A stretch of 64,000 nt of DNA from Leucocoprinus leucothites (taxonomy: Eukaryota > Basidiomycota > Agaricomycetes > Agaricales > Agaricaceae). The stretch is from the NCBI GenBank assembly GCA_013368445.1, contig JAACJO010000015.1, positions 310,001 through 374,000 of the forward strand. The letters are read 5' to 3'. Positions within the stretch are counted from its first letter, which is position 1. Each line of letters opens with the position of its first letter. The notes under the pieces were generated by a model, which saw only the letters and a program-made list of their open reading frames with translations, was not told where the DNA came from and did no database searches. Below are positions 31,569-55,084 of the stretch, piece by piece. The position numbers and the translations under genes were made by a program.

Positions 31569-31798
31569 GAAGTGTTGTTGTAAATTGGTGCACTAAGTCC
31601 ATGAGCTCTGACATGGAGTGAAACGAGTGGGCGGTCTTGAAATTGTTGAGGACAAATCATTGATGGCATCATCATCACAGCTTTGTGGTTTTCCGGTATT
31701 GCCGGCTGAAGCGTAACCCGTCAGGTTCACACAACCTGTAGCGCCCTCATGCACTTCTTGGTTTCGGCCAGCTTCTGTCGATCTCAGGACGGTCATTC

Positions 31799-32171
31799 TG
31801 TCGAAGCAGCAACGGGGAGCGTAGCGGTGAAGGTAGACGACGAGGTCAGTACTCACTTTACTAGGCAGTTAGTCTGTTATGGGATAGTGTTCGAGGTAGT
31901 AGTTGCGACTGAGAGTATAGAATTGACTGTAGGATAACGAAGAAAATACAAGGTATTTATACTAAAGAGTTCAAATAATTCTACTATAAAGAGGGTATTA
32001 CACCATCGTTTCGAGGTGGTAAAGGGTACAGGTAAAACATATAGTAAAACATGTATTGTCCGCATGAAGTATCGGTGCGTAAACATAGTGGTATCTAATA
32101 ATAGAATGCATATGTCATAATTGAGAGTGAACACGAACATAGCAGCGTGTAAACGCGCACGTGATTCAACA
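31799..32171 (-). repeat. 3' LTR of the copia element
   Basis: 373 bp, bounded by TG...CA (as TGTTGAATC...CTTCGACA on the element's strand). It differs from the other LTR at four positions, all transitions (369/373 identical). Confidence 0.95.
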
Positions 32172-32183
32172 CTCCTCCTCACT
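32172..32183 (-). other. Polypurine tract of the copia element
   Basis: On the element's strand GTGAGGAGGAG abuts the 3' LTR. This is the usual position and composition of the plus-strand primer. Confidence 0.65.
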
Positions 32184-32250
32184 CGAAATGGCGGGAGATG
32201 CATAATTAAGCGGCTATGAGAGCGCTTCGTTTAAGCGACTTATAAAAGCG

Positions 32251-35200: not shown

Positions 35201-37566
35201 AAGGCTTCTTTAGCCCGAGCTGGGTTATCGTTAAAGGGTTTCTGGTGCATCTTCCCTTTCATGCAGCCTGGACAAGGGCGCGAGTGATTGGGAATTGAAA
35301 CCTGAGGTCCATTTAGCGTGGAGTCGGTAGTTTTGCTCAACACGCGATTAGACGGATGTCCTAAACGTTGATGCCAGGTATTATAGTCAGGATGCTGAGC
35401 AACGTGGCTCGAAGCATTCGAATGTACAATTCGACATCTTACTGTTTGTAGCGTAGGCTGCGACTCAGAACGAGGAGCCACTGACAAAACGGCATTGCCT
35501 GACTCATCCCGAAAGATAGTACCATGTTTATCAGCCTCGCTGCGCAACCCGGATTCCAGGAGTTGTCCGGCAGACATGAGGCGATCGTGCATACCCTTTA
35601 CATAGAACACAGGAGACAATGAAGTCGTCGCAGTGATCGTTTTTCCGTTATCATGGATCTCGTGTTCGATCAAGACAGTGCCTCGACCCGAAATGAATAG
35701 GGGAGCGTTCTTGTTAGCTGTCTGAATTTCACCAAATTTCCCCATTTCGATTGTGGAAAAATCGTCCAAATAGGGTGTGAAATGTGCGGAAGCACCCGAA
35801 TCAAGAATCCAAGAAGCAGCCCGTGAAGGCGCTTTCTTTCCCTTACAGTGGCAACATAGAACTTTCTCACACTTAGACAGATTCACACAGCGCGGCACGG
35901 AGGTCAAATCACAGTTTAATAACAGCCCCACAGGGGCGACCGAAATAGTGCGCAATACAAGAGAAGTATATACAGGAGCCGGAGACGACGTAACTAGTCC
36001 GCGAAAATGTTCAGCGTGGCCAGGAGCGCTCACATGGGAGTGGGCTCGAGTGGGGCGACAGGCCCTTTCTCGGTCGTGCTGTGGCATCACCATATCAGTG
36101 TTAATCCAATCAGAAATAGAAGAAAAGACTTGCGTTGTCCACAACCCAGAAGTCCACCCGTCAGAATCCTCCCCCTCAGAGTCGGATTCGAGCATCGGAT
36201 CAGCCGGAGGTGTCATCCTCAGCGACGGTGGGCATTCGTCCATATCTCCTCCATAATAAGGGATTTCCTCGATAATGGAGCCCGTCGTTTCGGCTTCGAC
36301 CGCGAGGTCGGCGAGCCTTTCATCCCAAATTTTTAGCACTTTATCCTTGGTAGCTTTCGAGCTTCTGCGACGATATCCCTCGGACTGAGGAGATTCGGAG
36401 ATTCGCTCCTGAAGCCGCGGTGTATTCTTTTGCGCTTCTGCAACAAGGTGGCGTGTGGATGACAAAGGGCTTGCGTTAGCCGGTTCTGCCAGCGAGGCGA
36501 TCCGGTTCGCGAGGAGAGGACGGTTAGCGATAGCGGGGGCAGCGAAACCGATGGCACTGGAAGCGCCATATTGAGGAGCGACGTTGGTGACTCCGGAGGA
36601 GTTGGTGGCATCGGCATCGGTCGCAGCTTCATTAGCAGCGCCCTTACCCTTTTTGCCTCCTCTCTTACCGCGTTTTCCTTTCTTGCCATCTCCGCCGGGA
36701 TTGCCAGTCTGGGGGTTACCAGGCTTCTGGCCAGCGCCCTGATTAGGAGGCTGCTGCTGCTGTGGCTGCTGCTGGGGCTGTGATCGAAACGGCCCTTGTT
36801 GTTGTCCTTGCCCCTGGCGTTGTTGATTGCCGGGGTTCCGGTTCTGCTGCCATTGACTGTTGGAGCGGCCGGCGCGAGAAGCGGAAGCAGTCATCTTCTG
36901 GGACCAAGCAGCCTGGATGGCGCTACGGACCAGATCCCATGTGAGCTGGGACATTTGCATTTGGTTCGCAAGGATTGACTGCGCTAAGGTTTCCATCCCT
37001 TGCGGGACAGCGCGTAGCAGGATCATGGCACGGATCACCTCGGGAAGTCGCGCGGTCGCGCCTTTGATCCGAGTGAATAGAGATTCGAGCTCAGCGATGG
37101 ACTGAGCCGGATCCATGTTTCCGGGGAGAGACCAGGAGATGGCGTGGACGAAGTCGCCATAAACAGATGCAGGACCTTGGACGCCGTAAAGGCGTTGGAG
37201 ACCATCCCAGGTGGTGGCTGGATCTCCTTGGACGATCAGGTGGAGCATAGAATCTGGGACCGCTTGGATAAGCAGGCCAATCGCAGATTGCTCAAGGAAG
37301 TTCCTTTGACGCTCTTCCTCTGTTCGAAGCGCATGGGAAGCAGAAGCTTCAGCAGCATTCGTGACGTTTCCATCAGTGTCCATTTCTGGAGCAACAAGAG
37401 GTGGGAGCGCGGGCGTTAAGCCTGTTGTGACAGTCCAACCCATAAGAGGGGTTCCAGGGGTCGTGATCATAGAAAGATATCCCTGCATCCTCATGGACCA
37501 AAACTGGTAGTTCTGGGGACCTTGAAGGACGGGAATGCGAGAAGCTCCATTGTTGATAGAAGACAT
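32251..37566 (-). CDS. Copia gag-pol polyprotein
   Basis: 1,771 uninterrupted codons. Domains in order: gag (about 1-300, QFWSMRMQGYL, UBN2-like, then a Gln/Gly/Lys-rich basic tract); aspartic protease WILDSGASAHF; integrase with HQRLGHPSNRV, CPGCMKGK and the DDE core starting HSDLFELPI and LFTSDRGGEF; reverse transcriptase with DVKTAYLYGDLDEEIYMEQP and VYVDDVFFMG; and RNase H with ACSDSDWAQD and SSTEAEYMALSD. This protease-integrase-RT-RNase H order is that of Ty1/copia. No classical CCHC zinc knuckle is visible in gag; a lysine/glycine-rich segment (GGDGKKGKRGKRGGKKGKG) takes its place. There is no frameshift between gag and pol, so both are made as one polyprotein. Confidence 0.95.
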   Translation of the reverse strand: MSSINNGASRIPVLQGPQNYQFWSMRMQGYLSMITTPGTPLMGWTVTTGLTPALPPLVAPEMDTDGNVTNAAEASASHALRTEEERQRNFLEQSAIGLLIQAVPDSMLHLIVQGDPATTWDGLQRLYGVQGPASVYGDFVHAISWSLPGNMDPAQSIAELESLFTRIKGATARLPEVIRAMILLRAVPQGMETLAQSILANQMQMSQLTWDLVRSAIQAAWSQKMTASASRAGRSNSQWQQNRNPGNQQRQGQGQQQGPFRSQPQQQPQQQQPPNQGAGQKPGNPQTGNPGGDGKKGKRGKRGGKKGKGAANEAATDADATNSSGVTNVAPQYGASSAIGFAAPAIANRPLLANRIASLAEPANASPLSSTRHLVAEAQKNTPRLQERISESPQSEGYRRRSSKATKDKVLKIWDERLADLAVEAETTGSIIEEIPYYGGDMDECPPSLRMTPPADPMLESDSEGEDSDGWTSGLWTTQVFSSISDWINTDMVMPQHDRERACRPTRAHSHVSAPGHAEHFRGLVTSSPAPVYTSLVLRTISVAPVGLLLNCDLTSVPRCVNLSKCEKVLCCHCKGKKAPSRAASWILDSGASAHFTPYLDDFSTIEMGKFGEIQTANKNAPLFISGRGTVLIEHEIHDNGKTITATTSLSPVFYVKGMHDRLMSAGQLLESGLRSEADKHGTIFRDESGNAVLSVAPRSESQPTLQTVRCRIVHSNASSHVAQHPDYNTWHQRLGHPSNRVLSKTTDSTLNGPQVSIPNHSRPCPGCMKGKMHQKPFNDNPARAKEAFEHVHSDLFELPIVSYHKYKWVMTLLDDYSSFAHVVLLRSKAEAAPRMVELLTYVQNQFGKSIRLFTSDRGGEFVAGTLQDYLRVKGIEFTPSAPRVHQQNRRAERLNRTLHEKAQAMRLHACLPDSWWDFTINTATHIYNRTSMNRIQWKTPFELVHGHKPDISHLRVFGCAAYVFLPDEMRPNKLSAKSELMIFVGYDREKNYIFLRHTRGNAEFISPTVIFDEKMFPKCPDQKPVVYPEPPRAEIPPISTIPNVPNIDHLSTPRGGEPPHAPSPRAPPRPKTPSPPRSPSPPLSYADPEDRDLKEEEEEVELPPSHRPSRKEPGPRKRARSPSPPEVSPPRPSVQDDLDALERLDQWVTERENRHPKRNVQPPNRPGNVYGDRSDPLDVIRRYRELNPNLPRNRAQYRPIPGAISDEEARNRLRNWNIPHPDSSIDNKPSSTDFAKFVKEGGVKLVDFLLAQRANGPVPEQFQDIANLDTDTQTKWQKAMLEELDALHKRGVYELIDLPKGRRAIKNRWVYNIKSNNRYRSRLVAKGFSQIEGIDFDELFSPVVRYETARLLLGIAALEDFDLHSVDVKTAYLYGDLDEEIYMEQPEGFRLPGHEKKVWRLRKAIYSLKQASLSWWKALTSSMLKLGFKRCKSDAGVYHFTHPKTGERVFAVVYVDDVFFMGKKNSLLLSELKQKFMTTWECRDQGELSEFLGMNISRDRKERKLYIDQVKYLDKVLEKFDIPKGAKFTPLPSGFVFEPYVDKVDPKFRTRYQQLVGSLMYLMIGSRPDISFAVVKLFQQSAAPSNAHFRAGLHVLQYLRSTRNYRLVFDGASNQAIVACSDSDWAQDGQSRRSVTGNFVTIAHGPVSWLSRKQKTVALSSTEAEYMALSDCSRQLMWIQQLLEEIGFKIPAPILYGDNIGSIFWSENPVQEKCLKHIDIRYHYIRDIVEEGSVELEFIEGSNNPADILTKNLGSILFNKFVYSLGIEFL

Positions 37567-37813
37567 TCTGAAAAGAAGTCGTCAGTCAACGTTGTTCGTT
37601 AGAAGCAGCAGTGATGCGCTAATCGAGCAAGGTTTCGAACCCAAATCGCCTAAGGGCTAGGGTAAGACACAGAAATGAGAAGGGATGCTGGGCCCTTCAC
37701 AAGGTACAGCGGTGGCGCTTGGAAAGCGGCCTTCCCATAACAGGTCGATCTAGTCCTTCTCAGACATCAAGCACAGCGAGCTAGTCAGCTAGTGCAATAT
37801 CGAGCTGGCGATC

Positions 37814-37826
37814 GGGGCCCATAACC
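37814..37826 (-). promoter_or_regulatory. Primer-binding site complementary to initiator tRNA-Met anticodon arm
   Basis: Directly inside the 5' LTR the element reads GGTTATGGGCCCC. Its complement GGGCCCATAACC is the conserved anticodon arm (CAU) of eukaryotic initiator tRNA-Met. Copia-type elements prime from a cleaved 5' half of this tRNA rather than from its 3' end, and this site fits that mode. Confidence 0.8.
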
Positions 37827-38199
37827 TGTCGAAGCAGCAACGGGGAGCGTAGCAGTGAAGGTAGACGACGAGGTCAGTACTCACTTTACTAGGCAGTTAG
37901 TCTGTTATGGGATAGTATTCGAGGTAGTAGTTGCGACTGAGAGTATAGAATTGACTGTAGGATAACGAAGAAAATACAAGGTATTTATACTAAAGAGTTC
38001 AAATAATTCTACTATAAAGAGGGTATTACACCATCGTTTCGAGGTGGTAAAGGGTACAGGTAAAACGTATAGTAAAACATGTATTGTCCGCACGAAGTAT
38101 CGGTGCGTAAACATAGTGGTATCTAATAATAGAATGCATATGTCATAATTGAGAGTGAACACGAACATAGCAGCGTGTAAACGCGCACGTGATTCAACA
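37827..38199 (-). repeat. 5' LTR of the copia element
   Basis: 373 bp with the same termini as the 3' LTR; element transcription should start here on the minus strand. Three of the four differences between the LTRs are at CpG dinucleotides. Confidence 0.95.
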
Positions 38200-38646
38200 C
38201 GTTCATCCGCTTCGGAGGGGACCGGGATCATGAATCCTGTTTGCACACTCCCCATGATGTTCAGATGATTTCCCTAGTCCTTCAATGCCCACGAGACCAA
38301 ATTTTGATATTGTTCGCCTGGGACTTACCCCGCATGCGAGGACTTATAGTGCACACCATCTACATAGAAAAACAGAAATGCAACAGCTACAGCCCAAGAT
38401 CGTGTGAGGTCAATCCTATCAACTCCTTGTCCCGTGAACCTCGTACACCTGGGCCCATCAAAAGATAAGGTCGGTTTCGCCCTCCGTGGACAAGGGAAAA
38501 CATAGAGTCCGTGGAGGAGCTGTATTGGGTGACCTGGTGGCTGGAAACCGCTTCATTGAAGCTTGCAGTCAGGACGATTAATGAACTAATGTGGAAGCTG
38601 GACTCCCAGAAATCCTTCCCTAGCGGTACAAGCCGAACAAGGAAAG
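38200..38646. other. Intergenic flank of the retrotransposon
   Basis: About 450 bases from the LTR to the stop of the AIM6-like gene. A minus-strand frame (38,387-38,650) might be decayed AIM6 C-terminal sequence, but I could not align it. Confidence 0.35.
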
Positions 38647-39673: not shown

Positions 39674-40433
39674 TGAGTACTGCCTTCCTCACCGTTCATG
39701 TCGTCAAGATTATGTATCCCATGGTGCGAGAGAGAACAGACTGATAGAAGCCAACGATGAAAATAGATCTAGTTTCTCATAGAAGGAACAGACAGGCAGG
39801 CCGACAGACAGACAGACAGACAGACAGACATAGTTTCACGTGAACTAGATGCAAGGCCTCCTTTCATAGTATCATGAGAAAAGAAAAGGCCCGGAAGGAT
39901 GCTGAGAAACCGATGTCAGCGTTATCGCTACATCGCGCGTCAGCTAGAACAGAAGGTTTGTGACAGTCCTTTTGTCGCACGCCAGCCTAGAATAGCTTCA
40001 CTTCTTGGGATACCTAAAGGCGCAACATTCCGTAAGTTCTTGAATTGATCCTTCGAGGATCCTTATTGGTCACTGTCGCAAGATCGAGACACGTTCGAGG
40101 TGAGCACGGGAACCACGATTTATTGTGTTGAAGTCTATTATAAGTGAGAACTGATGCTAGAGTTAGCTATGCGGGGGTCCAGATGCAAAGTCACTTACCA
40201 GAACTAATACTACTTATACCAAAGGCATACCCTGGCGTACTATCATGTCGGACTTATCCCATGATGATCAGCGAAGCTTGAAAGAGCCAATCAACGTCAT
40301 AGTTTACCTGGCGGCGAGCAGGCTCCAGAGGTTGGGGCTTACCTCTACATTTAACATTATGTGAGGCGAATGTGACTGAGTTGAAAAGGCTCAAATCCGC
40401 TTGAACTCTGGTTTGTTGATGTATTACTGACCA
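39674..40433. other. Intergenic, left border of the RNase H-like gene cluster
   Basis: Contains the microsatellite and the AIM6 promoter. No gene is seen. Similarity to the duplicated promoter module starts only at about 40,430. Confidence 0.4.
39803..39830. repeat. (GACA)7 microsatellite
   Basis: Seven perfect GACA units preceded by degenerate GACAGGCAGGCC. The tract lies in the AIM6 upstream region and is likely length-variable between strains. Confidence 0.9.
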
Positions 40434-42810
40434 AATAGCTGATGCCATCATGCGAGTGCCAGCCTGAGCAAATCTTGGATCTCGGATGACTCCGAGTCAC
40501 TGACTCTGTCGTCGGGACCACCACAAAAGCTAAACGGATGCGCCGTTCACCCTAGTCTTTTGTATTTACTACAATCCGAACTTCTGCTTGTTGCTTCCAT
40601 CTTTCGGTGGCATGCCAGCAAATTTCTTTCAACCCCCTGCAACTCAAATGACAGGTGATATATTCATGCCTGCTAGGGCCCTAGCCATCTTCTCTTCTCT
40701 GACTGCCGGGGAAACAAACTGGACAACCTCAGTTCACGGCCCCAATCTAGGACACACAGCCCACCGAGCCTCTTACGCTATCTTAACCAGACGAGCTTCT
40801 CTCTTCCAAAACGGTTTTTTCTGAGACGACCTCAACAACAGTGCGATCCTGTTGACTGACCAGAATTCGAGTAAATGCTATGACTCGCCATGAGTAGTTG
40901 ATACAGCGTTCTAGAACTCCGTCTTATGATTACTTATGAGTCATTCATTCCTACCTGCAAGATAGATGAGGGAGGCGACTTCGATGTACTGTGGACCTAT
41001 CTCGGACAATTTGGCTGTTCCTCGGAGCCGAGTATTTATATCTTGGAATGTGGGGATTCTAGCTGCGTTTGAAGCGCTGACTGGTTGGCAAATATATAAA
41101 ACTCGTGCAATCCGCGAGGTGTTCCAGCCGCACAATTTTCCCCCTTCCTTGCACCTCCACCTATTGCCCACTACCTTCCCCGCACCTCCACCTATCACTC
41201 ACCACTAGCTGCATTCTGACGTGCTTTAACCGATATGCAAGCCCCTTCTTCTACTGATCATGACGGCTTTCTGTCGCATCGGAGTACACATGGACGAGAA
41301 AGCTTTCACACCTCCATGCATAACCCCGAATGGTCCGATTCCAGCAGCAACTGGGTCTACAAGCCTGAACTTGGCGTGATAGCTCACCAAGAGCACTGTT
41401 CGACATGTTACTGCTACATAGCACATATTAACGATGCCAAACGCGATCCCGTTGACGGTTCTGAATACCATTCTCTAGTCTTGGCTGAAGAGAATAGAGA
41501 TGCAGAGTTGCAGTTTGAGTTTGACAGAGGTTGGAATGCAGGACTTGAGGAGGGTGAAAGGCATTTGACGAGATCACGCATAAGGCTTGACCACGCACAT
41601 GCTTCTGTCTCTGAATATCAACGCAAATTTGACGAGGTGCAAGAACAGCTTAGAAAAAAGTGCAGCGAGCTCAACAGGCTACAAGCCGCCTATGAAAACC
41701 TACAACAACGGAAATTGTCAACCAATTTAATGCCAATTTTTCAAGAGGTTACCCAGGTTGGGATAAGAGCAGAAGCCAGTCAGCCCACTCCATCGGTCGC
41801 CGACCCCATACCCCCTGTGCCCCGACATCCCCCCACAGATGCCAGCGACAATGCGCACATCACCCCTTCGGCATTACCGACCTCACCACAGCATTTTCCA
41901 GCCACCCGTTCGCTCACCTCGTCGACCTTATCCCCACCTGAGGCGGCAGGTCAATCCAAGGCTGTCATAGATATGATTATCGCGCTGGTCACTGAGCTCG
42001 ACAAGGATCGTGATATAGTCGAATCTGTAGCAGAGGAATTGGCTGGCCTCTCTACCTCGCGACCCCGACAGCCTCTATCCTCCTACATCATTCAAGTCAA
42101 ATCTGCAGGTCAAGTTGTATCACGACTTGTTCAGATGTACTGGATAAAGATACGCAAAGCAAATCCAAGCTCCCGTACCCCAGTTCAAAAATTCCTACTC
42201 TCCAGCTTAAAAACGTCCTGGGCAGAATCCCTGGGCATCAAGGCCCTCTCTGTACCTCCACTACCAGTCGGTCCAGTGTACGTTGATGCATCCAGTACGG
42301 GCATTGGTTTTGTCTTTGAAGACCAATGGCAAATGTGGAGATTTGTTCAGGAGTGGAAAGAGCCCGAATACCGGGATATTCAATGGGCAGAAGCTGTTGC
42401 CGTAGAACTGGGCCTCAGGCTAATGATCAAGGCAGGATATTCGAGACGGGAAATAGTCATGTACTCGGACAACCAACAAGTTGTTGATGCGATTGCGAAA
42501 GGCTCGTCCATTGGCCAATCTGAAGCAGTTGAGATCATATACCAGATCGGAAAGCTGTGCCGAGTACATGATATCACCCTGATAATTGAATGGATTCCTG
42601 GGAAGAAAAATCCAGCAGACGCCCCATCCCGCTTTGACGCACAGGATCCTGACCAGCGATTTCCATACGATATCAAGATCCCTCCTTATCTGCGGGAATG
42701 GGTTGCTCCCGTCTACTTTGATAGATGAGAGGGGCAATTGAAAGAGAGATGGATACCCAACCCATCACGGTCACCACACCCAATGCCTGCAATGGTCTCT
42801 CTTTGTTTCC
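40434..42810 (+). repeat. Tandem segmental duplication unit 1 (promoter module plus RNase H-like copy 2)
   Basis: Aligns along its length with 43,238-45,610. The duplication covers about 800 bases of non-coding upstream DNA as well as the gene. Shared landmarks include GGATGCGCCGTTCAC, TGACAGGTGATAT, TCTGACTGCCGGGGAAAC, GAGTATTTATATCTTGG and TGGCAAATATATA. The last two are TATA-like and lie about 140-200 bases before each ATG. Confidence 0.8.
41235..42728 (+). CDS. RNase H-like tandem-family protein, copy 2
   Basis: 497 residues, single exon, ATG at 41235. The N-terminal module is NWVYKPELGVIAHQEHCSTC with YCYIAHI. Its putative metal ligands are H51, C55, C58 and H64. FDRGWNAGLEEGE follows (about 96-108), then a coiled coil (about 125-165, LRKKCSELNRLQAAYENLQQ), a Pro/Ser-rich linker and a helical block. 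The RNase H domain starts near 345: first Asp D351 in YVDASSTGIGFVF, Glu E386 in QWAEAVAVELG, then YSDNQQVVDAI and WIPGKKNPADAPSRF. All four acidic positions are kept. Closest relative is copy 3, with long identical stretches such as TDASDNAHITPSALPTSPQH. Confidence 0.85.
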   Translation: MQAPSSTDHDGFLSHRSTHGRESFHTSMHNPEWSDSSSNWVYKPELGVIAHQEHCSTCYCYIAHINDAKRDPVDGSEYHSLVLAEENRDAELQFEFDRGWNAGLEEGERHLTRSRIRLDHAHASVSEYQRKFDEVQEQLRKKCSELNRLQAAYENLQQRKLSTNLMPIFQEVTQVGIRAEASQPTPSVADPIPPVPRHPPTDASDNAHITPSALPTSPQHFPATRSLTSSTLSPPEAAGQSKAVIDMIIALVTELDKDRDIVESVAEELAGLSTSRPRQPLSSYIIQVKSAGQVVSRLVQMYWIKIRKANPSSRTPVQKFLLSSLKTSWAESLGIKALSVPPLPVGPVYVDASSTGIGFVFEDQWQMWRFVQEWKEPEYRDIQWAEAVAVELGLRLMIKAGYSRREIVMYSDNQQVVDAIAKGSSIGQSEAVEIIYQIGKLCRVHDITLIIEWIPGKKNPADAPSRFDAQDPDQRFPYDIKIPPYLREWVAPVYFDR

Positions 42811-42877
42811 TTAATTATTCATTCCATATTGCTTTCAAGCCTGCATACCCATTTTTTTCCTTTTTAAAAACTCATAA

Positions 42878-43243
42878 GTTGATCTAGCCGAATGCTGGCC
42901 GTGGTCCAGGCCGATCCACCAGCATTCCAAAGTGATGCTCCTCCCTTTCCACTGGATGATTGGCCACAGTGGTCGAATGATTTCATAGGAAGATTCTCCA
43001 CCTTATCTTATCTTGCCTTTTTGTCTTGCCTGTATGGCTGGCCGCTATACGTCCTCCGATACCTTCTATGTTTTCCTCTACGAGACAAAGTAAATAGTAT
43101 CTTAACGCCATCCACACAAACTCCAACTTCCCAAGTCAGTATGTCCAATTCCCCGTCATCCAGGATGCAGAATTGCGTTGCGATTATCAGTAAGGCACAA
43201 ACGTCCTGCATCCAAGTATACCTGTTGAAATTGTCTGACCAAA
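42878..43243. repeat. Duplicated spacer A1, homologous to 46,062-46,400
   Basis: The spacer between copies 2 and 3 resembles the sequence just before copy 4. Both begin AGTTGATCTAGCCGAATGC, both contain CTCCTCCCTTT and ACGAGACRAAGT, and both end near AGTAAGGCACAAA. On the minus strand both also read as an open frame with related peptides (for example QDVCALLIIATQFCIL against QDICALLVIVPRFSIL). It could be a relic or an unrecognised exon. Confidence 0.6.
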
Positions 43244-45610
43244 TAACTAATGTCATCATGCCAAGAGTGCAGCAAATCTTGGTTCTCACTGATGAGTCGG
43301 AGCCAGACGTGTCATCTGGACCACCACAAAAACTGAACGGATGCGCCGTTCACTCCAGTCTTTCGTATTTACTATAATCCGACCTTCCGCTTTTACTTGC
43401 CGCTTTCATCTTTCGGCGGCATACTGGCCAAATTTCTTCCAACCCCTGCCGCTCTAATGACAGGTGATATGTTCATGCCTGCTAGTGCCCTAGCTATCTA
43501 CTCCTTTCTGACTGCCGGGGAAACGGGGTAATGAACTGGACAACCTCAGCGCGCGGTTCGTTTCCGGACACACAGCCCACTATGACTCTTGCGCTATCTT
43601 AATCAGACGAACTTCTCTCTTCCGGTGCGGTTTTTCTGAGACGACCTCAACAACAGTGCGATCCTGCTGACTACATGACTCGTCACGAGTACTTGGTACA
43701 GAGTTCTGGAATTCGATCTTCGCTCATGATTACCTGTATGATGAGTCACTCACTCCTACCTGCAAGATAGAGGAGGAAAGTGACTTCAATGCACTGAGGA
43801 TCTGTCTCGGACAGTTCGGCTGTCCTGAGTCGGGAGCCGAGTATTTATATCTTGGAATAGGATTTTAGCTGTGCTTTAAGCGCTGACAGGCTGGCAAATA
43901 TATACTCATGCAGTCCACGAGGTGTTCCATGCCGCGTGATTTTCCCTTCCCCGCACTCCCACCTATTGTCCACCACCTCCCCACGCCCCCACCCATCACT
44001 CACCACTAACTGGCTTATAGTGTACTATGCCGACTCCTTCTATTTTCCATGACGACTTTCTGTCGCGTTGGAATACACTTGGACGAGAAAGCTTTCGCAC
44101 CGAGTCTATGAATAACTCCGAAAGGCCTGATTCTAGCAGCAATTGGGTCTACAAGCCTGAACTTGGCGCGATAGTTCACCAAGAGCATTGTTCGACATGT
44201 TACCGTTACATAGCGCATATGAGCAATGCCATGCGTGATCCCATCGACTGTCCTGAATACCATTCTCTAGTCTTGGCTGAAGGGGATAGAGATGTAGAGT
44301 TCCAGCTTGAGTTTGACAGAGGTTGGGACGCAGGGCTTCAGGAGGGTGAAATACGTTTGACAAGCTGCCATACCAAGCTTGACCATGCACTAGCCTCTGT
44401 CTCCGAATATCAGCGCAAATACAACGAGACGCTGGATCAGCTTAAACGAAAGACCAGCGAGCTCGACAGGCTGCAAGCCGCCTATGAAAACCTACAACAA
44501 CAGACATCATTCAATTCAATGCCAACTCGTCAAGGGAACATCGAGGTTGGGATAAGAGCAGGAGCCAATCAGCCCCCTCCATCGGTCGCCGACCCCATAC
44601 CCCCTGTACCCCGACATCCCCCCACAGATGCCAGCGACAATGCGCACATCACACCTTCGGCATTGCCGACCTCACCACAGCATTTTCTAGCCACCTGTTC
44701 GCTCACCTCGTCGACCTTATCCCTACCTGAGGCAGCGGGTCAATCCAAAGCTGTCATAGATATGATTATCGCGCTGGTCACAGAGCTCAACAAGCATCGT
44801 GATATAGTCGAATCGGTAGCAGAAAATTTGGATGGTCTGTCGACCTCACGACCCGAACAGCCTCTATCTTCCCGCATCATTCAAGTTGAATCTGCAGCAG
44901 GAGTTGTCTTGCGACTTGTTCAGATGTACTGGACAAAGATACGCAAAGTAAATCCAAGCTCCCATACCCCAGTTCAGGAATTCCTACTCTCCAGCTTGAC
45001 GATGCCCCAGGCCGAATCCCCGAGCATCAATATACTCCCTGCACCTCTACTACCAGTTGGTCCAGTGTACGTTGATGCATCCGGTATGGGCATTGGTTTT
45101 GTCTTTAAAAACCAATGGCAAATGTGGAGACTCGTTCAGGGATGGATGGAGCCTCAGTACCGGGATATTCAATGGGCAGAAGCCGTTGCCGTAGAACTGG
45201 GCCTCAGACTGATGATACAGGCAGGATATGCGAGACGAGAAATATCCATGCGCTCGGACAACCAAGCGGTTGTTGATGCACTTGCGAAAGGTTCGCCCAT
45301 TGGCGAGTCTGAAGTAACTGAAATCGTATACCAAATCAAAAAGCTATGCCAAGTACACGATATCACCCTCGCGATTAAGTGGATTCCTGGGAAGGAAAAT
45401 CCAGCAGATGCCCCATCTCGCTTTGAAAAACAGAATCCGAATCAGCGATTTCCACACGATATCAGGATCCCCGCTTACCTGCAGGAGTTTGTTGCCCCAG
45501 CCCGCTGTGACGGTGACAGCGGGAGCAGCAGTTGAGGGGAAGATGTATACCCAACTCGTCGCCCAATGCCTGCATCCCTCCCTATCTCCTCCATTCCTTG
45601 TTACTCCCAA
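43238..45610 (+). repeat. Tandem segmental duplication unit 2 (promoter module plus RNase H-like copy 3)
   Basis: Partner of 40,434-42,810, offset by about 2.8 kb. Non-coding sequence is conserved almost as clearly as coding sequence, which shows a recent en-bloc duplication rather than retroposition. Confidence 0.8.
44027..45535 (+). CDS. RNase H-like tandem-family protein, copy 3
   Basis: 502 residues, single exon. Same layout as copy 2: VYKPELGAIVHQEHCSTCYR with YIAHM; FDRGWDAGLQEGE; coiled coil with DQLKRKTSELDRLQAAYENL; linker; RNase H. Catalytic positions are intact: YVDASGMGIGFVF, QWAEAVAVELG, MRSDNQAVVDAL and WIPGKENPADAPSRF. It differs from copy 2 mainly in the linker and the helical block. 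The C-terminus extends about nine residues further (GDSGSSS). Confidence 0.85.
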   Translation: MPTPSIFHDDFLSRWNTLGRESFRTESMNNSERPDSSSNWVYKPELGAIVHQEHCSTCYRYIAHMSNAMRDPIDCPEYHSLVLAEGDRDVEFQLEFDRGWDAGLQEGEIRLTSCHTKLDHALASVSEYQRKYNETLDQLKRKTSELDRLQAAYENLQQQTSFNSMPTRQGNIEVGIRAGANQPPPSVADPIPPVPRHPPTDASDNAHITPSALPTSPQHFLATCSLTSSTLSLPEAAGQSKAVIDMIIALVTELNKHRDIVESVAENLDGLSTSRPEQPLSSRIIQVESAAGVVLRLVQMYWTKIRKVNPSSHTPVQEFLLSSLTMPQAESPSINILPAPLLPVGPVYVDASGMGIGFVFKNQWQMWRLVQGWMEPQYRDIQWAEAVAVELGLRLMIQAGYARREISMRSDNQAVVDALAKGSPIGESEVTEIVYQIKKLCQVHDITLAIKWIPGKENPADAPSRFEKQNPNQRFPHDIRIPAYLQEFVAPARCDGDSGSSS

Positions 45611-46061
45611 ACTCGCGAGTACCCAGTTTGCTCCTTTTCAAAAACCTCGCTGAAGATCACAGTGGAAGACTTGCCGAGGAACGAGGCAAGTGTGATTTCT
45701 TGTGACATGAGTGTCGCATCACGGGGGCTGGCTGTGAGCGCCTGAGCGCCAGCACACTCCTCTCCATTTATCTACTTGCTCGATTATACTCCTGCATTAT
45801 AGCGTCGAGACCTCTGTATTTTAAATTTCCCGCCCTCCTGTATCCTTAAGCACTGAACCCATCTACCTAGGCATCAATAACGCAGACTCAGTCAGCCACA
45901 CATAGTGAGCCGAAGGCAGACCCGGTTTGGGGTGACCCGCCCGCACTCTCCTTCGGCCTCGCAAACAAGGACATCGGCCGCTTATAGCTGCCAATTCCCT
46001 TTCCCTCGCACTCCGTGTGTGGTTGTCTGGGTTACCCTACCCGAAATGAATAGTCACAAGT
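45611..46061. other. Spacer unique to the copy 3-copy 4 junction
   Basis: About 450 bases not found between the other copies. It contains a short stem (GCCGAAGG near 45,908 with CCTTCGGC near 45,951). No gene, tRNA or known element is recognised. It may be an insertion. Confidence 0.35.
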
Positions 46062-46400
46062 AGTTGATCTAGCCGAATGCCGGCCGTTCTCCGAGTCTAG
46101 GCCAACCCATCAAAACATTCTGCTCCTCCCTTTTTATCAGACCGGCCACAATGACTGAATGTTTTCATGTGAACACTCTCCACCTTGTCTCACCTTCTCG
46201 TCTCATCTGTATGACAAGTCGATATAAGTCATAAGACGTCTTCTACGTTCCCCTTCACGAGACGAAGTGAATAACTTAATATCTCACACAGACCCTGACT
46301 TCGGAAGTCAGTAGCATCCAATTTCCGGTCATGCAGAATAGAGAATCGAGGTACAATTACCAGTAAGGCACAAATGTCTTGTATCAAAACATACCTTTTA
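46062..46400. repeat. Duplicated spacer A2, homologous to 42,878-43,243
   Basis: Second copy of spacer A. Here it runs straight into the linker region of RNase H-like copy 4. The roughly 800-bp promoter module and the N-terminal coding module that follow A1 are missing. Confidence 0.6.
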
Positions 46401-47209
46401 AAATCATCGACAGCAAGAACGAAGAAAAGGAGGACAGCAATGCACACACCCTGGCGGAATCCGACGACAATTCGGAGGGTAAAGTGGATTTCGCAGATGA
46501 GGACGCTCATGGTGACCTATTGTCATTGACTGAGGATTCACTCGCCAATGCAATGGACCACCATAGCTCAGCGCCTTCCTCTCCGAATTTAGTTCCGCAA
46601 TTTAACGGTGCCGCTTCATTTATTCCAAATCCAAGTGGCCGATCCAAAAACACGTCTTCGCATACCTCACCTTCGCCGAATGATTCCCAGGCGTCTTTAT
46701 TTTCCTCTGGAATCCAAGACGGCGACTCCTCGACTGCGTCATCGACCGACCACGTTTACGTTGACGCGTCTGACGCAGGGATAGGCTTCTTCTTCGCCAA
46801 TCAATGGGAGGCCTGGAGGTTAAAACCCGGGTGGAAAGTTTTAAAAATCCGTGACATCCAGTGGGCTGAGGCTGCCGCTGTTGACCTGGGTGTTCGGCTT
46901 ATGATCGAAGCTGGTTATGCAGGGAAGGAAATCATCCTTCACTCGGATAACCAACAGGTCGTCAATGCCGTCTGCCAGGTGCATCGTATTGGGCCACAAA
47001 ACGGTCTCGCAGCAGAGGTCGTTCGGAATGTTATTGAACTTTGTCAGGAATTGGATATCCAGTTGAAGGTTGGGTGGATCAATGGGCCGTCCAATCCTGC
47101 AGATCACGCTTCAAGGCTGGAAGTTGGTCTGAAGGAGGAGGCTAGAGTTCCGTATCGTGTGGAGATACCGTCGTATCTGCAGGAGTTTGTTGTTGCTTAT
47201 GAGATGTGA
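46379..47209 (+). pseudogene. RNase H-like tandem-family copy 4, 5'-truncated
   Basis: An open frame of 276 codons containing only the acidic/Ser-rich linker and the RNase H domain. The His/Cys module and coiled coil are absent. The frame opens without an ATG (TTG at 46379); the first ATG is at 46550, giving 219 residues. The RNase H domain itself looks intact: YVDASDAGIGFFF, QWAEAAAVDLG, HSDNQQVV and NPADHASRL. The upstream end is fused to spacer A2, so a deletion removed the promoter and N-terminus. It could be a pseudogene or a stand-alone RNase H with a new start. The RNase H domain most resembles copies 5-7. Confidence 0.65.
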
Positions 47210-47630
47210 AGGACCTATGCACCGGAGTACATTCGGAGAGTGTTGGCTTGCACTTTCCAAAGGTACCCGATGCATGAGGCTATCACCGATTCTTTCTTCT
47301 CAACTTTCTCTGGCCTTTCACGATTTCAAACCCTTAATGTATTCTTAGAATCCGTAGCAAATGTGACATGTCGTTAAACTGATTCGCAATCAGCTCGAAA
47401 CATAGTGCGACTTATTTGGTGATATCGGACTATGTACCACAATCATAAATCCGGATCAGCCACTATCCAGGGAGATACGTCATTACGGACCGCCAGCATG
47501 TAACCGTAAGGCGCCAATCATATCAGGTGTGAACAAGACGAGAATGAGAGTGGGCCGGGCCTTGAGATTTCCCATGACCATAATCAACGACCACTTCACC
47601 TCTCGTTCCCTTGCATAAGTAATCGATACA

Positions 47631-49229
47631 ATGGCTGGATACTATCCCAACACGCATCCGCCATACATAATCCCCCAACATTTCCCATCCCCTCAGGCCG
47701 TACCCTGGCATACAGGGTGGATGTACAATAGCCAAACGTTCAGTACCATCCATAACCCCAAAGACTGTGACGTCTGTAGGACCTACTACATGTGCCACGT
47801 CCTAAATCCACATCCACTATTTCAATCCCCGTCGATATCAAACTCGCTAGGCGCAACGAATGCCTTCCTAGTTACACAACAACCATGGAATTTCGGATTC
47901 CAGCATGGCTTTCAAGAAGGATTCAATGCTGGAATACAGACACTATCCGGTACCGACAATAACCAAGGGAACAATATGCAAGGAAAGAATAAAGAGGGGA
48001 AAGGTGGCGATAGTAAAGCTCCGGTTGAGTTGGTAGAGAAAACTCAAGCAGAGATCGATCGTCTGCGAGATCAGCTCATCGTATTACAACAAACATATGA
48101 TAAGCTGGTACCGCGAGTCTCTCACGCTGCCACTCGAGGTCGAGGGAAGAAGGGCTCTGCGGGGAAAAAATCTAACCTCCGGATTACCTTACCCGAGGTG
48201 GCTGAGCATATAAGGCCGTCGTCTTCGAAGGGTGCCAACAACGACAGTTCCACTGGCATTAGCAACTTGGATCTTGATGAGTCGTTTCATTATATCTATC
48301 AGACCACAACGGCAGACAGCAATAAAATAGACGATCAGGAAATAGATGAAGGATTTAAGGAGGAGGCTGAAAGAGAGGAAACGAGCAACGGATCCGAAGA
48401 ACTTGTGGTTGACAGCAAACCCGCTCGAGTGTCGGACAAGGTGTCTCCCTCCACTTCCAGGTCACGTCGAAAGACTGCACAACTGGACAAAAGGAAAGAT
48501 CCCCCGTTACCTCCTTCCTCTCCACCACAGCCGCAGTCGGAAGTGTTAGGCAGTTCCGTGGGAGAGATTCGAGAGTCGATGGATAGCGCCCATCGTGCTG
48601 AGGAGGAGGCTTTAGCATGGCTCGAGCCGTTACTTTCCGAAGTGGACACGACGCCTCCGGCAGCCCAGACAGAAGTGCAAACCGTTTTTAGCGAGCAGCG
48701 TTCAGAGAGTCAAACTCTCGACATCATTGAGGGCCCAAGTGTTGCTCCATCGGCTTCGCTAGAACATGTCTACGTCAGTGCCTCTGACATTGGTATCGGG
48801 TTCGTGTTCAACGAACAATGGGAAGCATGGAGGTTGAGAAAGGGCTGGCAAAAAGGAGGCTGGAAACAGGGAAAATTTCGTGATTTCCAGTGGACGGAAG
48901 CCGTAGCTGTGGAACTCGGTGTACGAGTGATGATTAAGGCTGGGTATGCGGGGAAGGAGATAACGATATGTTCGGATAATTTGCAAGTCGCTCAAGCATT
49001 TTCAGAAGGAAGAGAGATCGAGGAACCGCCAGCGCAGGAGGTGTTGGATAATACTAAGAGATTGTGTCGTCAACTGAAGATTTCGCTGAAGGTGTTGTGG
49101 AATCAGGGGACGGAAAATCCGGCGGATCAGGTTTCGGTATTGGATGTTGGAAGCGCGACAGCTAGGTTTCCGTGTCATGTAGAGATACCACCGTTTCTTC
49201 AGGACGTGGTCGTGCCGTTTTACCAGTGA
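47631..49229 (+). CDS. RNase H-like tandem-family protein, copy 5, first catalytic Asp lost
   Basis: 532 residues, single exon. N-terminus IHNPKDCDVCRTYYMCHV (H-x4-C-x2-C-x6-H), then HGFQEGFNAGI, a coiled coil ending LIVLQQTYDKL, a basic patch (RGRGKKGSAGKK) unlike its neighbours, an acidic linker and RNase H. The first catalytic position reads VYVSASDIGIGFVF, with Ser (codon AGT, 48777-48779, residue 383) where every other copy has Asp. The last motif reads NPADQVSVL, losing the Arg of DxxSR. QWTEAVAVELG and CSDNLQVA remain. Nuclease activity is probably lost while the frame stays open, so a binding or structural role, or early decay, is possible. Confidence 0.85.
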   Translation: MAGYYPNTHPPYIIPQHFPSPQAVPWHTGWMYNSQTFSTIHNPKDCDVCRTYYMCHVLNPHPLFQSPSISNSLGATNAFLVTQQPWNFGFQHGFQEGFNAGIQTLSGTDNNQGNNMQGKNKEGKGGDSKAPVELVEKTQAEIDRLRDQLIVLQQTYDKLVPRVSHAATRGRGKKGSAGKKSNLRITLPEVAEHIRPSSSKGANNDSSTGISNLDLDESFHYIYQTTTADSNKIDDQEIDEGFKEEAEREETSNGSEELVVDSKPARVSDKVSPSTSRSRRKTAQLDKRKDPPLPPSSPPQPQSEVLGSSVGEIRESMDSAHRAEEEALAWLEPLLSEVDTTPPAAQTEVQTVFSEQRSESQTLDIIEGPSVAPSASLEHVYVSASDIGIGFVFNEQWEAWRLRKGWQKGGWKQGKFRDFQWTEAVAVELGVRVMIKAGYAGKEITICSDNLQVAQAFSEGREIEEPPAQEVLDNTKRLCRQLKISLKVLWNQGTENPADQVSVLDVGSATARFPCHVEIPPFLQDVVVPFYQ

Positions 49230-49876
49230 GCACTGTTTAGCCATTTTGGTGAGATTGCTGTTGTATTTTTGGAAATAATAAATTTAGTGTATGTACCCGT
49301 GTTTTCTCATTTCCTGTTCACATTATCGATATGTGTGCGCACTTGCGTAAAATCTACTTTTTTTCAGGTTACTGTTTGTTAAAAGTGTAGAACTAAAGGC
49401 ACCGCAAAAGAAATGTCGATGGAGTTCGAAATTTCTGGAATTAAAGTTATACTGAAAAGTCTGGAGAGCCAATATATAAACGATGGCCGTCCTTTGTAAA
49501 AGCAACAGTACCCGTAAATTGCTGCCTCAGTATGGAATTAACAAGGGAAACCCAAGCTTATTATAGAGTGCATGAGGCCCATCCATTCCGACGAATACCT
49601 TCAAAAAGCGCGAGAGGCTCTTTTTTCCCAACTTGTCTGTAGGCGATCTCAGGACCGTAATGTCGGTGATATCGGACCTCCGCAATCATGATTTCCGGAT
49701 CAGCCACCGGCCAAGAAGATACGACATTCAGGACAATCAGCATGCAAGGCAGCAATCGTACCTGGTGCGAAGCATGTGAGGGTCGGAGCGAGTGCGGCCT
49801 TGAATATTTTCCATGATCACAATAAGCGATCACCCTCTCGTCCCCCCGCATAAGTAATCAATCGTTAATCAGCCTC

Positions 49877-51448
49877 ATGGCTGGCTACTATTTCAACGCA
49901 TATCCGGCATATACCCCGCCTCTACCTTGGCATGCAGCTTGGATACACAATAACTATACGTTCGGTACCATCCATAACCACCACAATTGTGACATCTGCG
50001 GGACTTACCTGGCTCACGTCCTAAATGAACCACGTCCACAATTGCAATATCCATCGATATCACCCTCGCTAGCGGCAACAAATGTTTTCCCAGCTGCACA
50101 GCAGGGGGACTTCGAACACCAGCATGGCTTTCAAGAAGGTTTCAATGCTGGAGGACGAACCCTATCCTGCGCCGACAGCAATGAAGAGGACCGTTTGAAA
50201 GAAGAGGAGAAAGAGGAGAGAGACTGCGGCACTAAAGTTCAGTCTGAGTTGCTAGAAAAAGCTCAAGCGGAGATCGACCATCTGCGGAATCAGCTCGTTG
50301 CACAAGAAGACGCGTACGATGAGCTGATACAGCGGGTCGCTCTCGCTGCCACTCAGAAGCCAGGGGGGATCGTCTCTGCACTGCCCGCACCTGACCCTCG
50401 CCCGACTGCCTTGCTCGAGGCGGGTGGGTATGCAGTGATGTTGTCATCCGACGACGATAGTACCACTGAAGACTCAGATTCTAATGAGTCGTTTCATTAT
50501 GTCGGTCATTCTAGAATGATGGATAACAACACCAATGATAGTGATCAGAATACGGACGGGGGACTCAAGGAAGAGGCAGAAAGGGAGGCTAGTAACGACT
50601 CAACGCTTATGATTGGCAACCAACTCACTCGAGCTTCGGACGAGGTGTTTCCCTCTACCCCCGGGTCCCGTCCAATTACTCCGCGGCTGGACAAAGAGGA
50701 AGATTCTCCGTCGCCCCCTTCCTCTCCACCACGACCACAGCCGGAAGCACTGGCCAGCTCCGTAGGGGAAGTCCGGGAGTTGATGGATCGTGCGCACCGT
50801 AATGGTGAGGAGGCTTTAGCACAGGTCAAGCTACTGGTTTCCCAAGCACATGCGACACCTCCGGCAGTGCGGACAGAGGTGCATACCGTTCTCCTCACTG
50901 AATGGCGGCGACCTCAAGGTCAAACTTCGAGCTCGTTGTTCGACATCAATATCCAAAGTCTTGTTCCATTACCTCCTCTAGAACATGTATACGTCGATGC
51001 CTCTGACGTTGGTGTTGGGTTCATCTTCAACAAGCAATGGGAAGCATGGAGGTTAAGAAATGGCTGGCGACAAGGAGGTTGGAAACAAGGAAAAATTCGT
51101 GATATCCAGTGGGCGGAAGCTGTAGCAGTGGAACTCGGTGTGCGAGTGATGATTAAGGCTGGGTATGTGGGAAGGGAGATAACTATATGTTCGGACAATA
51201 TGCAAGTCGTTCAAGCATTTTCAGAAGGAAGGTATATTGGAGAGCCTTTAGCACAAGAGGTGTTGGATAATACCGAGAGGTTGTGTCGTCAACCAAAGAT
51301 TCGGTTGAAGGTGTTATGGATTCGGGGCACGAAAAATCCGGCGGATCAGATTTCGAGGTTGAATGTTGGAGATGCCGCGGATAGGTTCCCGTGTCATGCA
51401 GAAATACCTCCTTTTCTTCAGGACGTGGTTGTGCCGTTTTACCAGTGA
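49877..51448 (+). CDS. RNase H-like tandem-family protein, copy 6
   Basis: 523 residues, single exon. Layout: PWHAAWIHNNYTFGTIHNHH, then NCDICGTYLAHV as the His/Cys motif; HGFQEGFNAGG; coiled coil (about 115-150); acidic linker with a single QNTDGGLKEEAERE block; a helical block with VKLLVSQAHATPPAVRTEVH and LLTEWRRP; and RNase H with YVDASDVGVGFIF, QWAEAVAVELG, CSDNMQVVQAF and NPADQISRL. All four acidic positions are kept. The WIPG of other copies is WIRG here. The helical block aligns well with copy 1, tying the dispersed member to this subgroup. Confidence 0.85.
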   Translation: MAGYYFNAYPAYTPPLPWHAAWIHNNYTFGTIHNHHNCDICGTYLAHVLNEPRPQLQYPSISPSLAATNVFPAAQQGDFEHQHGFQEGFNAGGRTLSCADSNEEDRLKEEEKEERDCGTKVQSELLEKAQAEIDHLRNQLVAQEDAYDELIQRVALAATQKPGGIVSALPAPDPRPTALLEAGGYAVMLSSDDDSTTEDSDSNESFHYVGHSRMMDNNTNDSDQNTDGGLKEEAEREASNDSTLMIGNQLTRASDEVFPSTPGSRPITPRLDKEEDSPSPPSSPPRPQPEALASSVGEVRELMDRAHRNGEEALAQVKLLVSQAHATPPAVRTEVHTVLLTEWRRPQGQTSSSLFDINIQSLVPLPPLEHVYVDASDVGVGFIFNKQWEAWRLRNGWRQGGWKQGKIRDIQWAEAVAVELGVRVMIKAGYVGREITICSDNMQVVQAFSEGRYIGEPLAQEVLDNTERLCRQPKIRLKVLWIRGTKNPADQISRLNVGDAADRFPCHAEIPPFLQDVVVPFYQ

Positions 51449-52151
51449 ACCCTGTTTAACCTTTTTTGGTGGGACAGTTGTTATATTTTGGAAATAATAA
51501 ATTGGACATGTCTGTTGTTTTTTTTATTTGCTGTTCGCACGATTAATCTGTATATGTGCTTGTGTAAAGTCTATTTTTTTCCGGTCGCTGTCTTGTTGAA
51601 AGTGTAGAACCAAAGGTGCCGTGAAAGGAATGTTGATGGGATTCGAAATCCTGGAATGAAAGTGTTATTGAAACATCCGTGGAGAGCCGATATACAAACG
51701 ATGACCGGCCAGTGCGAAGTAGCTCTACCTCGTCTCCCGTAAAATAGCGCATCAGTAAGAAATCAATAAGAGAAGCTCGAGCTTACCATCAAATCTCAAA
51801 GGTTCATCCACTCTGATCAAGGCATTCAGAAACGCAAGCCAACACTTTCTGAGGATGAGGCTGGAAATGTTTTCTATTTCAATACGTCTCTAACCTTATT
51901 CTGTTTCAGGGCTGTAATGTCGGTGATATCGGACTTCCGCAATCATGATTGGCGGATCAGTCACCGGCCAAGTAGAAGTGGCGTCGACTCGTTACAAACC
52001 ACCACCAGCGTTGCAAGGCGGCAATCATACCAGGTGCAAACATGTGGGGGGTCGGAGTGAATGCGGCCTTAGTTGTTTTCCAAGATCACAGTCAACGACT
52101 GCTTCAGTGACTTCACCTCTCGTCCCAGGCCTCGTATAAGGAATCAACATC

Positions 52152-53945
52152 ATGGCTGGCTACTATTCCAACACAGTTCCGGCGTACACCCATCCCCGTA
52201 TACCATGGCATGCAGCTTGGGTGTGCAATAACTATGCCTTCGGTACCGTCCATAACCACCATGATTGTGGCGTCTGTGGGGTTTACATGGCCCACGCCCT
52301 AACGCAATTTCAATACCCGTCGATATCACCCTCAGTAGCCACAACGAGCGCCTTCCCAAATGCACGGCAACAGGGGGGCTTCGAATACCAGCATGGCTTC
52401 CAAGAAGGTTTCAATGCTGGAAGAGCTACCCTATCCTGCGCCGACGACAACAAAGAAGACAATTCGGAAGAGGGGGAGAAAGAGAAAGGCTGCGGTGCTA
52501 AAGCTCAGGCTGAGCTGCTAGAAAATGCTCAAGCGGAGATCGACCATCTGCGGAATCAGCTCGTTGTATTACAGCAAACGTACGACGAGCTGATGCAGAG
52601 GGTCTCTCTCACTGTCACTCAGAGTCCAGGGGCAGTGGACTCTGCGCTGTCCGGACCTGACCCTAGGATTGCCTTGTCTGAGGTGGGTGAGTATACAACG
52701 TCGTCATCCAACGACGATAGTACCACTGAAGACTCGCATTATGATGAGTCGTTTCATCATGTCTGTCAGTCCAGAACGATGGATAACGACGACGATAATG
52801 GTGATCAGAATATTGACTGGGGATCTAAGGAAGAGGTAGAAAGAGAGGAGGCTAGCAACAAATTAATGTTTGTGATTAACAATAGACTTGCCCGAGCTTC
52901 GGATAACGACGACGACGACGACGATCAGAATACGGGTGGGGGATTCAAGGAAGAGGTCGAAAGAGAAGAGGCTACCAACAGATTAATGTTTGTGATTGGA
53001 AACAGACTTTCCCGAGCTTCGGATAACGACGACAACAATAATGATCAGAATACGGACGGGGGACTCAAGGAAGAGGTAGAAAGAGAGGAGGCCAGCAACA
53101 AATTAATGTTTGTGATCGGCAACAGACTTGCTCGACCTTCAGACAAGGTGTCTCCCTCTACCTCCACATCCCGTCCAACGACCCCACACCCGGACAAAAA
53201 GGAAGGTTCTCCATCACCGCCTTCCTGCCCGCCACGACCGCAGTCGGAAGTGCTGACCATTTCCGTGGGGCAGATTCGAGAGTTGATGGATCGCGCGCAC
53301 TGTATCGATGAGGAGGCTTTAGCACAGGTCAAGCTGCTAGTTTCCCAAGCGCGTGCGACACCTCCGTCAGAGCGGACAGAGGTGCATACCGTTCTCCTCA
53401 CCGAATGGCGGCGTCCTCTGGGTCAAAGCTTGATACTTAACCTCAGTGTCCCAAGTCTCGGTCTATTACCTTCGGTAGGACCTGTCTACGTCGATGCCTC
53501 CACCGTTGGTATCGGGTTCATCTTCAACAACCAATGGGAAGCATGGAGGTTAAGAAACGGCTGGCAACAAGAGGGCTGGAGACAGGGAAATTTCCGTGGT
53601 ACCCAATGGGCGGAAGCTGTAGCAGTGGAACTCGGTGTACGGGTGATGATTAAGGCTAGATATGTGGGAAGGGAGATAACGATATGTTCGGATAATATGC
53701 AGGTCGTTCGAGCGTTTTCGGAAGGAAAGTATGTCGGAGAGCGGCTAGCACATGAGGTGGTGAGTAATACTGAGAGGTTGTGCCAACAACTGAAGATCCA
53801 GTTGAAGGTGTTATGGATTCCGGGGGTGAACAATCCGGCGGATCAGATTTCGAGGTTGAATGTTGGAAGTGCCGCGGATAGGTTCCCATGTCGTGTAGGG
53901 ATACCGCCGATTCTTCAGGACGTGGTCGCGCCGTTTTACCAGTAA
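52152..53945 (+). CDS. RNase H-like tandem-family protein, copy 7, with internal repeat expansion
   Basis: 597 residues, single exon, the longest member. N-terminus VHNHHDCGVCGVYMAHA, HGFQEGFNAGR, coiled coil ending LVVLQQTYDELM, an expanded acidic linker, then the RNase H domain YVDASTVGIGFIF, QWAEAVAVELG, CSDNMQVVRAF and WIPGVNNPADQISRL. All four acidic positions are present. The extra length comes from three 40-residue repeats in the linker, each starting DNDDD/N and holding KEEVEREEA and LMFVIxNRL. Confidence 0.85.
   Translation: MAGYYSNTVPAYTHPRIPWHAAWVCNNYAFGTVHNHHDCGVCGVYMAHALTQFQYPSISPSVATTSAFPNARQQGGFEYQHGFQEGFNAGRATLSCADDNKEDNSEEGEKEKGCGAKAQAELLENAQAEIDHLRNQLVVLQQTYDELMQRVSLTVTQSPGAVDSALSGPDPRIALSEVGEYTTSSSNDDSTTEDSHYDESFHHVCQSRTMDNDDDNGDQNIDWGSKEEVEREEASNKLMFVINNRLARASDNDDDDDDQNTGGGFKEEVEREEATNRLMFVIGNRLSRASDNDDNNNDQNTDGGLKEEVEREEASNKLMFVIGNRLARPSDKVSPSTSTSRPTTPHPDKKEGSPSPPSCPPRPQSEVLTISVGQIRELMDRAHCIDEEALAQVKLLVSQARATPPSERTEVHTVLLTEWRRPLGQSLILNLSVPSLGLLPSVGPVYVDASTVGIGFIFNNQWEAWRLRNGWQQEGWRQGNFRGTQWAEAVAVELGVRVMIKARYVGREITICSDNMQVVRAFSEGKYVGERLAHEVVSNTERLCQQLKIQLKVLWIPGVNNPADQISRLNVGSAADRFPCRVGIPPILQDVVAPFYQ
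52782..53141 (+). repeat. Three tandem 120-bp in-frame repeats inside copy 7
   Basis: Repeats begin at 52782, 52902 and 53022, each with GATAACGACGAC. The period is exactly 120 bases, or 40 codons. Copy 6 has one such block, so the array arose after the gene duplication. Confidence 0.9.
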
Positions 53946-54832: not shown

Positions 54833-55084
54833 GGTAGATGAGATGGAGGTGGAAAGAAAACGACAGGTGTGGAGAAGGTATAAAAGCAAGCTCGAATGAT
54901 ATGACATCATTGCTTTATGCACACGTGATATGATACTCTGAGAGCACGTGCTCCGGAGACTACCGGCAAGCCGGGTGTAAGACCAAGCTCGTGATTGGGC
55001 GGACGGAGCCCGTCGTTCTACTCCGAGCCTGCCGTGAATTTATCCTTTCTACCTCTAGTTCTACTCTCCCCGCCGTCACCGACG

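Follow-up and report, generated by a model that had tools for sequence, protein, structure and literature searches.

A tandem array of probable host genes with a DIRS-type RNase H domain in Leucocoprinus leucothites

A family of RNase H genes on one contig

We analysed a window of 64,000 nt from the 47-Mb genome of Leucocoprinus leucothites (contig C15, positions 310001–374000), which contains seven related open reading frames (ORFs), numbered copies 1–7 in order, all on the forward strand within a 34-kb span (20470–53945) and each with a C-terminal RNase H (RH) domain (Table 1). Six of the seven have a shared N-terminus, consisting of an H-x3/4-C-x2-C-x5/6-H module (HCCH), a conserved F..G...G and a coiled coil; in copy 1 these are followed by an acidic linker, a helical segment and the RH domain (HCCH motif, H48-C52-C55-H61; coiled coil, 69–156; helices, 321–368; RH, 383–528). 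Six copies have the HCCH module and the helical segment in this order, although copies 2 and 3 show obvious degeneration of the latter, while the short copy 4 has neither. The linker of copy 7 is extended by a 120-nt repeat present three times (52770–53146). A known Pfam family was rejected as the identity of the N-terminus, its matches being weak or limited to the coiled coil, and a search of Rfam gave nothing at the gathering threshold.

The copies fall into groups that reflect their duplication history. Copies 2 and 3 form a tandem duplication of 81% identity that extends 800 nt upstream but only 33 nt beyond the stop codon, and copies 5, 6 and 7 make up another tandem group (68–79% identity), in which part of the upstream region and about 350 nt downstream were co-duplicated. 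Copy 1 is set apart, with 31–35% identity over the alignable N-terminal part. The original prediction, made from this DNA without database searches, had described the genes as single-exon and as duplicated together with upstream and 3′ sequence. The second claim holds apart from the very short 3′ flank of copies 2 and 3; the first probably fails for copy 4, whose frame, judged from GT..AG and reading frame, is best explained by a short first exon and a 51-nt intron.

Table 1 Features of the RNase H gene family and of the intervening retrotransposon (window coordinates)
Feature	Position	Strand	Remarks
Copy 1	20470..22062	+	530 aa; first ATG 20470 (ORF, model, RVT_3)
Copy 1, three-helix segment preceding RH	21430..21573	+	Model; resembles part of the contig C4 host protein
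Copy 1, RH domain	21616..22053	+	
First unit of 2.8-kb tandem duplication: copy 2 with its upstream flank and 33 nt of 3′ flank	40427..42761	+	81% over 2379 columns to 43235–45555
Copy 2	41235..42728	+	497 aa
Relic (5′ region) of a gene of the copy 4 type, between copies 2 and 3	42877..43231	+	No RH body; 69.6% to 46062–46404; ATG..CAGTAAGG retained
Copy 3	44027..45535	+	502 aa
Copy 4, short form	46331..47209	+	275 aa; predicted exons 46331–46362 and 46414–47209
Copy 5	47631..49229	+	532 aa; YVSAS, Ser replaces the first catalytic Asp
Copy 6	49877..51448	+	523 aa
Copy 7	52152..53945	+	597 aa
Copia retrotransposon, outside the family, between copy 1 and the array	31798..38200	-	One open 1771-aa frame

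The RNase H domain and its DIRS-order relatives

The C-terminal domain of copy 1 matches RVT_3 above the cut-off and has the features of an RNase H fold, with D387, E421, D447 and D497 as the catalytic set (DEDD). Over 26 aligned rows, E421 and D497 are invariant (26/26 each), D447 is found in 25 of 26 (with a gap in P0005) and D387 in 24 of 26, so that the set is incomplete only in copy 5, P0002 and P0005 and complete in six of the seven window copies. In copy 5, Ser takes the place of the first Asp; this loss is shared by P0002, from which copy 5 differs at 8 of 479 amino acids. RNase HI and retroviral reverse transcriptase (RT) appear in the Foldseek and VIA lists, which does not exclude families outside those lists. 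PDB sequence searches with copy 7 and with the RH profile returned nothing useful, and 72 pattern matches on viral contigs included no relative. As type 1 RNases H, the intact copies would cleave the RNA of RNA:DNA hybrids.

We compared a profile of 21 family RH domains with 11 DIRS-type sources (seven genomic loci and four metagenomic proteins), 12 of the 16 PF00075 matches in the genome (L029–L040) and the Copia element of the window. All 11 DIRS-type sources scored 47–80 bits, whereas the 12 PF00075 (RNase H1-type) loci and Copia scored below 6 bits or were unlisted (Copia RH, 2.9 bits), and on this difference both Copia and PF00075-type RNase H were rejected as the kind of donor. In an RH tree, the 21 family and 11 DIRS rows were split with support of 99/99, which is compatible with a single capture; P0002, P0005, P0007, P0008 and P0016 were omitted as near-copies or because of a gap. 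These comparisons support placing the family RH with that of tyrosine-recombinase (YR, DIRS-order) retroelements, which narrows the donor class of what had been predicted as a retroelement-type RH at the C-terminus of seven related genes, a prediction that is borne out.

Elements of the DIRS order (DIRS/Ngaro/PAT/VIPER) are the nearest RH relatives that we found outside the family and resemble it in RH sequence and motifs, but the window copies differ in having no RT or recombinase match, another N-terminus, no dispersal and no repeats found around copy 1. Each of the seven RH loci found outside C15 has the P0024 recombinase region immediately after its RH; on C15, the P0024 query covered the RH only, in four of the seven copies among the matches listed, with no match to the recombinase region. 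Similarly, the RT part of P0012 matched at C24, C35, C13, C18 and C28 (five of the seven RH loci), with fragments on C20, C9 and C6, and had no match on C15, where all seven copies were matched through the RH alone. In-frame stops interrupt 14 of the 18 P0012 matches outside C15, possibly because of introns or age. For the donor recombinase, support came from a PHROG integrase match (E = 5.8e-4) and, weakly, from PF00589 (E = 0.033), and P0014 barely passed the PF00336 cut-off of 22.4 bits, scoring 22.5; Pfam and PDB searches for the donor RT and recombinase gave nothing else in support. No repeats of at least 18 nt were found around the isolated copy 1 (19300–23200), and no pairs of inverted repeats of at least 60 nt in 38000–56500.

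According to PMC3266345, DIRS1-like elements carry gag, YR and RT-RH-methyltransferase (MT) genes, MT is absent from Ngaro and VIPER, and 16 basidiomycetes are without well-conserved DIRS1-like copies; PMC3411680 lists one DIRS family in Laccaria bicolor. From these statements, our guess is that the donor was Ngaro-like.

A resident gene with the same N-terminal architecture

Besides the C15 copies, a genome query with the copy 1 N-terminus matched a gene on contig C4 (E = 5.8e-4) that encodes a 494-aa ORF (L027:3717–5201, corresponding to G000:C4:1621216–1622700). Its protein has an HCCH module and, 200 residues later, a segment that aligns with the helical segment preceding the RH, and BLASTP of copy 1 against it gave two collinear matches (E = 3e-7 and 4e-5). 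Using profiles built without the C4 protein (N-terminal, 17 rows; helical, 21 rows), with E values taken among 1285 sequences, the C4 protein was recovered at 5.7e-10 and 3.7e-8, respectively, with its matches in the same order as in the family, and the next-best sequences outside the family reached 1.9 and 0.70. In a shuffling control, the best of 2000 sequences scored 6.6 and 8.9 bits, compared with 35.6 (N-terminal) and 29.2 (helical) for the real protein. Beyond the C15 copies and C4, N-terminal queries of the genome gave one weak match on C1 (E = 0.37), and a search of the genome for a second C4-type copy found none.

The C4 gene thus has the HCCH module, coiled coil and helical segment of the family in the same order, but it ends in a different C-terminus of about 135 aa (WFDYL..HPHSWPKGVR..) that is not an RH and matches no Pfam family; in the window copies, the RH occupies its place. 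The simplest reading of the two sequences is that an RH replaced the C-terminus of a C4-type gene.

Relatives in other fungi

Three protein searches gave 14, 17 and 6 proteins, and because two of them scored the best 7998 and 7994 candidates only, restriction of the family to Agaricaceae is not established. Family proteins, among them ones with the same architecture, were found in Leucoagaricus sp. SymC.cos, Leucocoprinus birnbaumii and Agaricus bisporus var. burnettii, with the others derived from environmental samples; a taxonomy look-up places Leucoagaricus and Leucocoprinus in Agaricaceae, to which Agaricus also belongs. Two A. bisporus family genes carry the locus tags 10296 and 10298, and the source contigs of P0004 and P0009 have the same length (5986), which suggests gene clusters in these relatives also. 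Variants include P0009, a short form that, like copy 4, has no N-terminal module, and P0011 from A. bisporus, which has Tyr at the last His of the HCCH motif.

Selection on the copies

Using the Nei–Gojobori method with bootstrap intervals on four paralogue pairs, we obtained dN/dS values of 0.50 (0.37–0.65) for copies 2/3, 0.45 (0.34–0.57) for 6/7, 0.48 (0.37–0.62) for 5/6 and 0.56 (0.44–0.71) for 5/7, and 0.24–0.47 for the RH alone; comparisons with copy 1 were uninformative owing to saturated synonymous sites. Gaps also preserve the frame: 34 of 36 coding gaps in four comparisons are multiples of three, and the two exceptions, of 16 and 5, sum to 21. In the flanks, the corresponding figure is 10 of 48 (five comparisons), and neither count is made up of independent events because the pairs have copies in common. 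When substitutions alone were simulated under neutrality, 1, 0 and 0 of 2000 runs ended with an open frame. These patterns support purifying selection as what maintains the copies.

Neighbouring features and other loci

The Copia element that separates copy 1 from the array is 2.2 kb away from the latter and has long terminal repeats (LTRs) of 98.9% identity, which point to a recent insertion. It is adjoined by an NPHP3_N/NACHT ORF of NOD-like receptor (NLR)-like type (29494–31200, reverse strand), and a small GTPase-like ORF (MMR_HSR1, weak AIG1) lies at 59800–60606 on the same strand. Elsewhere in the genome, another tandem array (L041, G000:C6:1347000–1356900) packs seven matches to PF00075 (RNase H1-type) into 8.4 kb, in open frames of about 200–360 aa, with two further matches on contig C6 at 1620896 and 1641170.

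Origin and possible function

The RNase H fold, the kinship with DIRS-order elements, the collinear homology to the C4 gene, the tandem duplication and the purifying selection are each supported. Taken together, they make it likely that the copies are host genes and not transposons, formed when a DIRS-order RH was swapped onto a C4-type gene and then duplicated in tandem with flanks. In an ancestor within Agaricaceae, such an RH would have taken over the C-terminus of a gene encoding the HCCH module, coiled coil and three-helix segment, and the fusion gene would then have been tandemly duplicated, flanks included.

Several observations weigh against this history. The C4 protein is just 25–32% identical to the family, its type was found in this one genome only, and a protein search with the copy 1 N-terminus returned six proteins, all of the RH family and none of C4 type; the direction of the swap is therefore putative and the reverse possible, and its date is likewise putative. 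A long stem separates family and DIRS in the RH tree, with a warning of long-branch effects, and what we take to be the RT of the donors was recognised by its motifs, with no confirmation from profile searches of Pfam and PDB. Constraint on the N-terminus and linker is moderate (dN/dS 0.47–0.67) and weakest in the linker, where the intervals exceed 1 in two of the four pairs (6/7 and 5/6), and all dN/dS values compare paralogues only.

The original prediction had proposed that the host captured the RH of a retroelement, which was fused to new domains and locally amplified. Capture, fusion and amplification are supported, as is the sharing of the N-terminus by six copies, but the N-terminal module and helical segment are not unique to the family, since the resident C4 gene has both. 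It had also excluded RT, integrase and LTRs from the surroundings, which agrees with RT and recombinase queries matching C15 in the RH only, though not with the nearby Copia and its LTRs. Two outcomes named as counting against a captured gene, namely copies that are fragments of a transposon with RT elsewhere and dN/dS near 1 (found, 0.45–0.56), were not seen in the RT and recombinase queries of C15 and the paralogue comparisons.

A different origin, as a non-autonomous DIRS-derived element with a gag-like N-terminus, an RH of its own and RT and recombinase supplied in trans, would account for the DIRS type of the RH, and gag proteins can contain coiled-coil and Cys/His modules. We regard it as improbable, given that all seven copies lie within 34 kb of one contig, that the only other N-terminal match at E < 0.3 is C4, that the repeat searches above were empty, and that the N-terminal profile has no match to the DIRS loci given, whose gag was on that basis rejected as the family N-terminus. 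Decay without selection is disfavoured more strongly still: the 5′ relic and the short copy 4 are what it would predict, but gaps preserve the frame, dN/dS is below 1 and the short form without the module recurs elsewhere in P0009, which together leave this explanation very little room.

The function of a captured and retained RH is a separate matter. The HCCH module would bind zinc, the coiled coil would form homo- or heterodimers, and a flexible linker would leave the RH free to cleave the RNA strand of RNA:DNA hybrids, the N-terminus selecting the site; copy 5, minus one catalytic Asp, would serve as a non-catalytic partner. Extended to an effector family specific to Agaricaceae, in which a resident HCCH/coiled-coil protein directs a retroelement RNase H against the RNA:DNA hybrids of retroelements and catalytic and dead paralogues dimerise, this becomes a speculative proposal that we consider unlikely. 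Active defence, in which the RH destroys the RNA:DNA intermediates of DIRS or LTR elements and the expansion records an arms race, is likewise possible but unlikely. Such hybrids are obligate retroelement intermediates and RH substrates, the RH tree groups copies by lineage, the window shows tandem expansion, and the interrupted P0012 matches would fit as well; however, dN/dS indicates constraint and not positive selection, and DIRS copies commonly decay where no defence of this kind exists. A recent Copia insertion lies beside the array, so the family did not stop Copia, and together with the constraint this opposes a strong general role. Somewhat less unlikely is non-enzymatic use of the RH as a hybrid- or protein-binding domain, since copy 5 and P0002 are without the catalytic Asp and the RH of copy 5 is still constrained (dN/dS 0.24 versus copy 6), but DEDD is intact in the six other copies and its exceptions over the alignment are few.

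Precedent and significance

We found no description of the family in the literature searched, which excluded most subscription journals. Domestication is well documented for transposases and for gag and env genes. The nearest precedent that we met is a domesticated VIPER-derived gene of trypanosomatids (PMC5146736), reported as a single syntenic host gene that has an unrelated N-terminal part and a C-terminal part descended from the RT/RH protein of a YR retroelement, in which RT and RH are not conserved. The window family differs from what is described there in retaining the RH alone with its DEDD residues, in having a traceable host frame and in occurring as tandem copies. A lone YR-retroelement RNase H as the swapped C-terminus of an identifiable resident gene, with catalytic residues kept and in tandem, has no counterpart in the literature searched. 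If expressed and active, the family would offer a tractable case of a host acquiring a nuclease from a retroelement, in which any restraining effect of such an enzyme on retroelements or R-loops could be tested directly.

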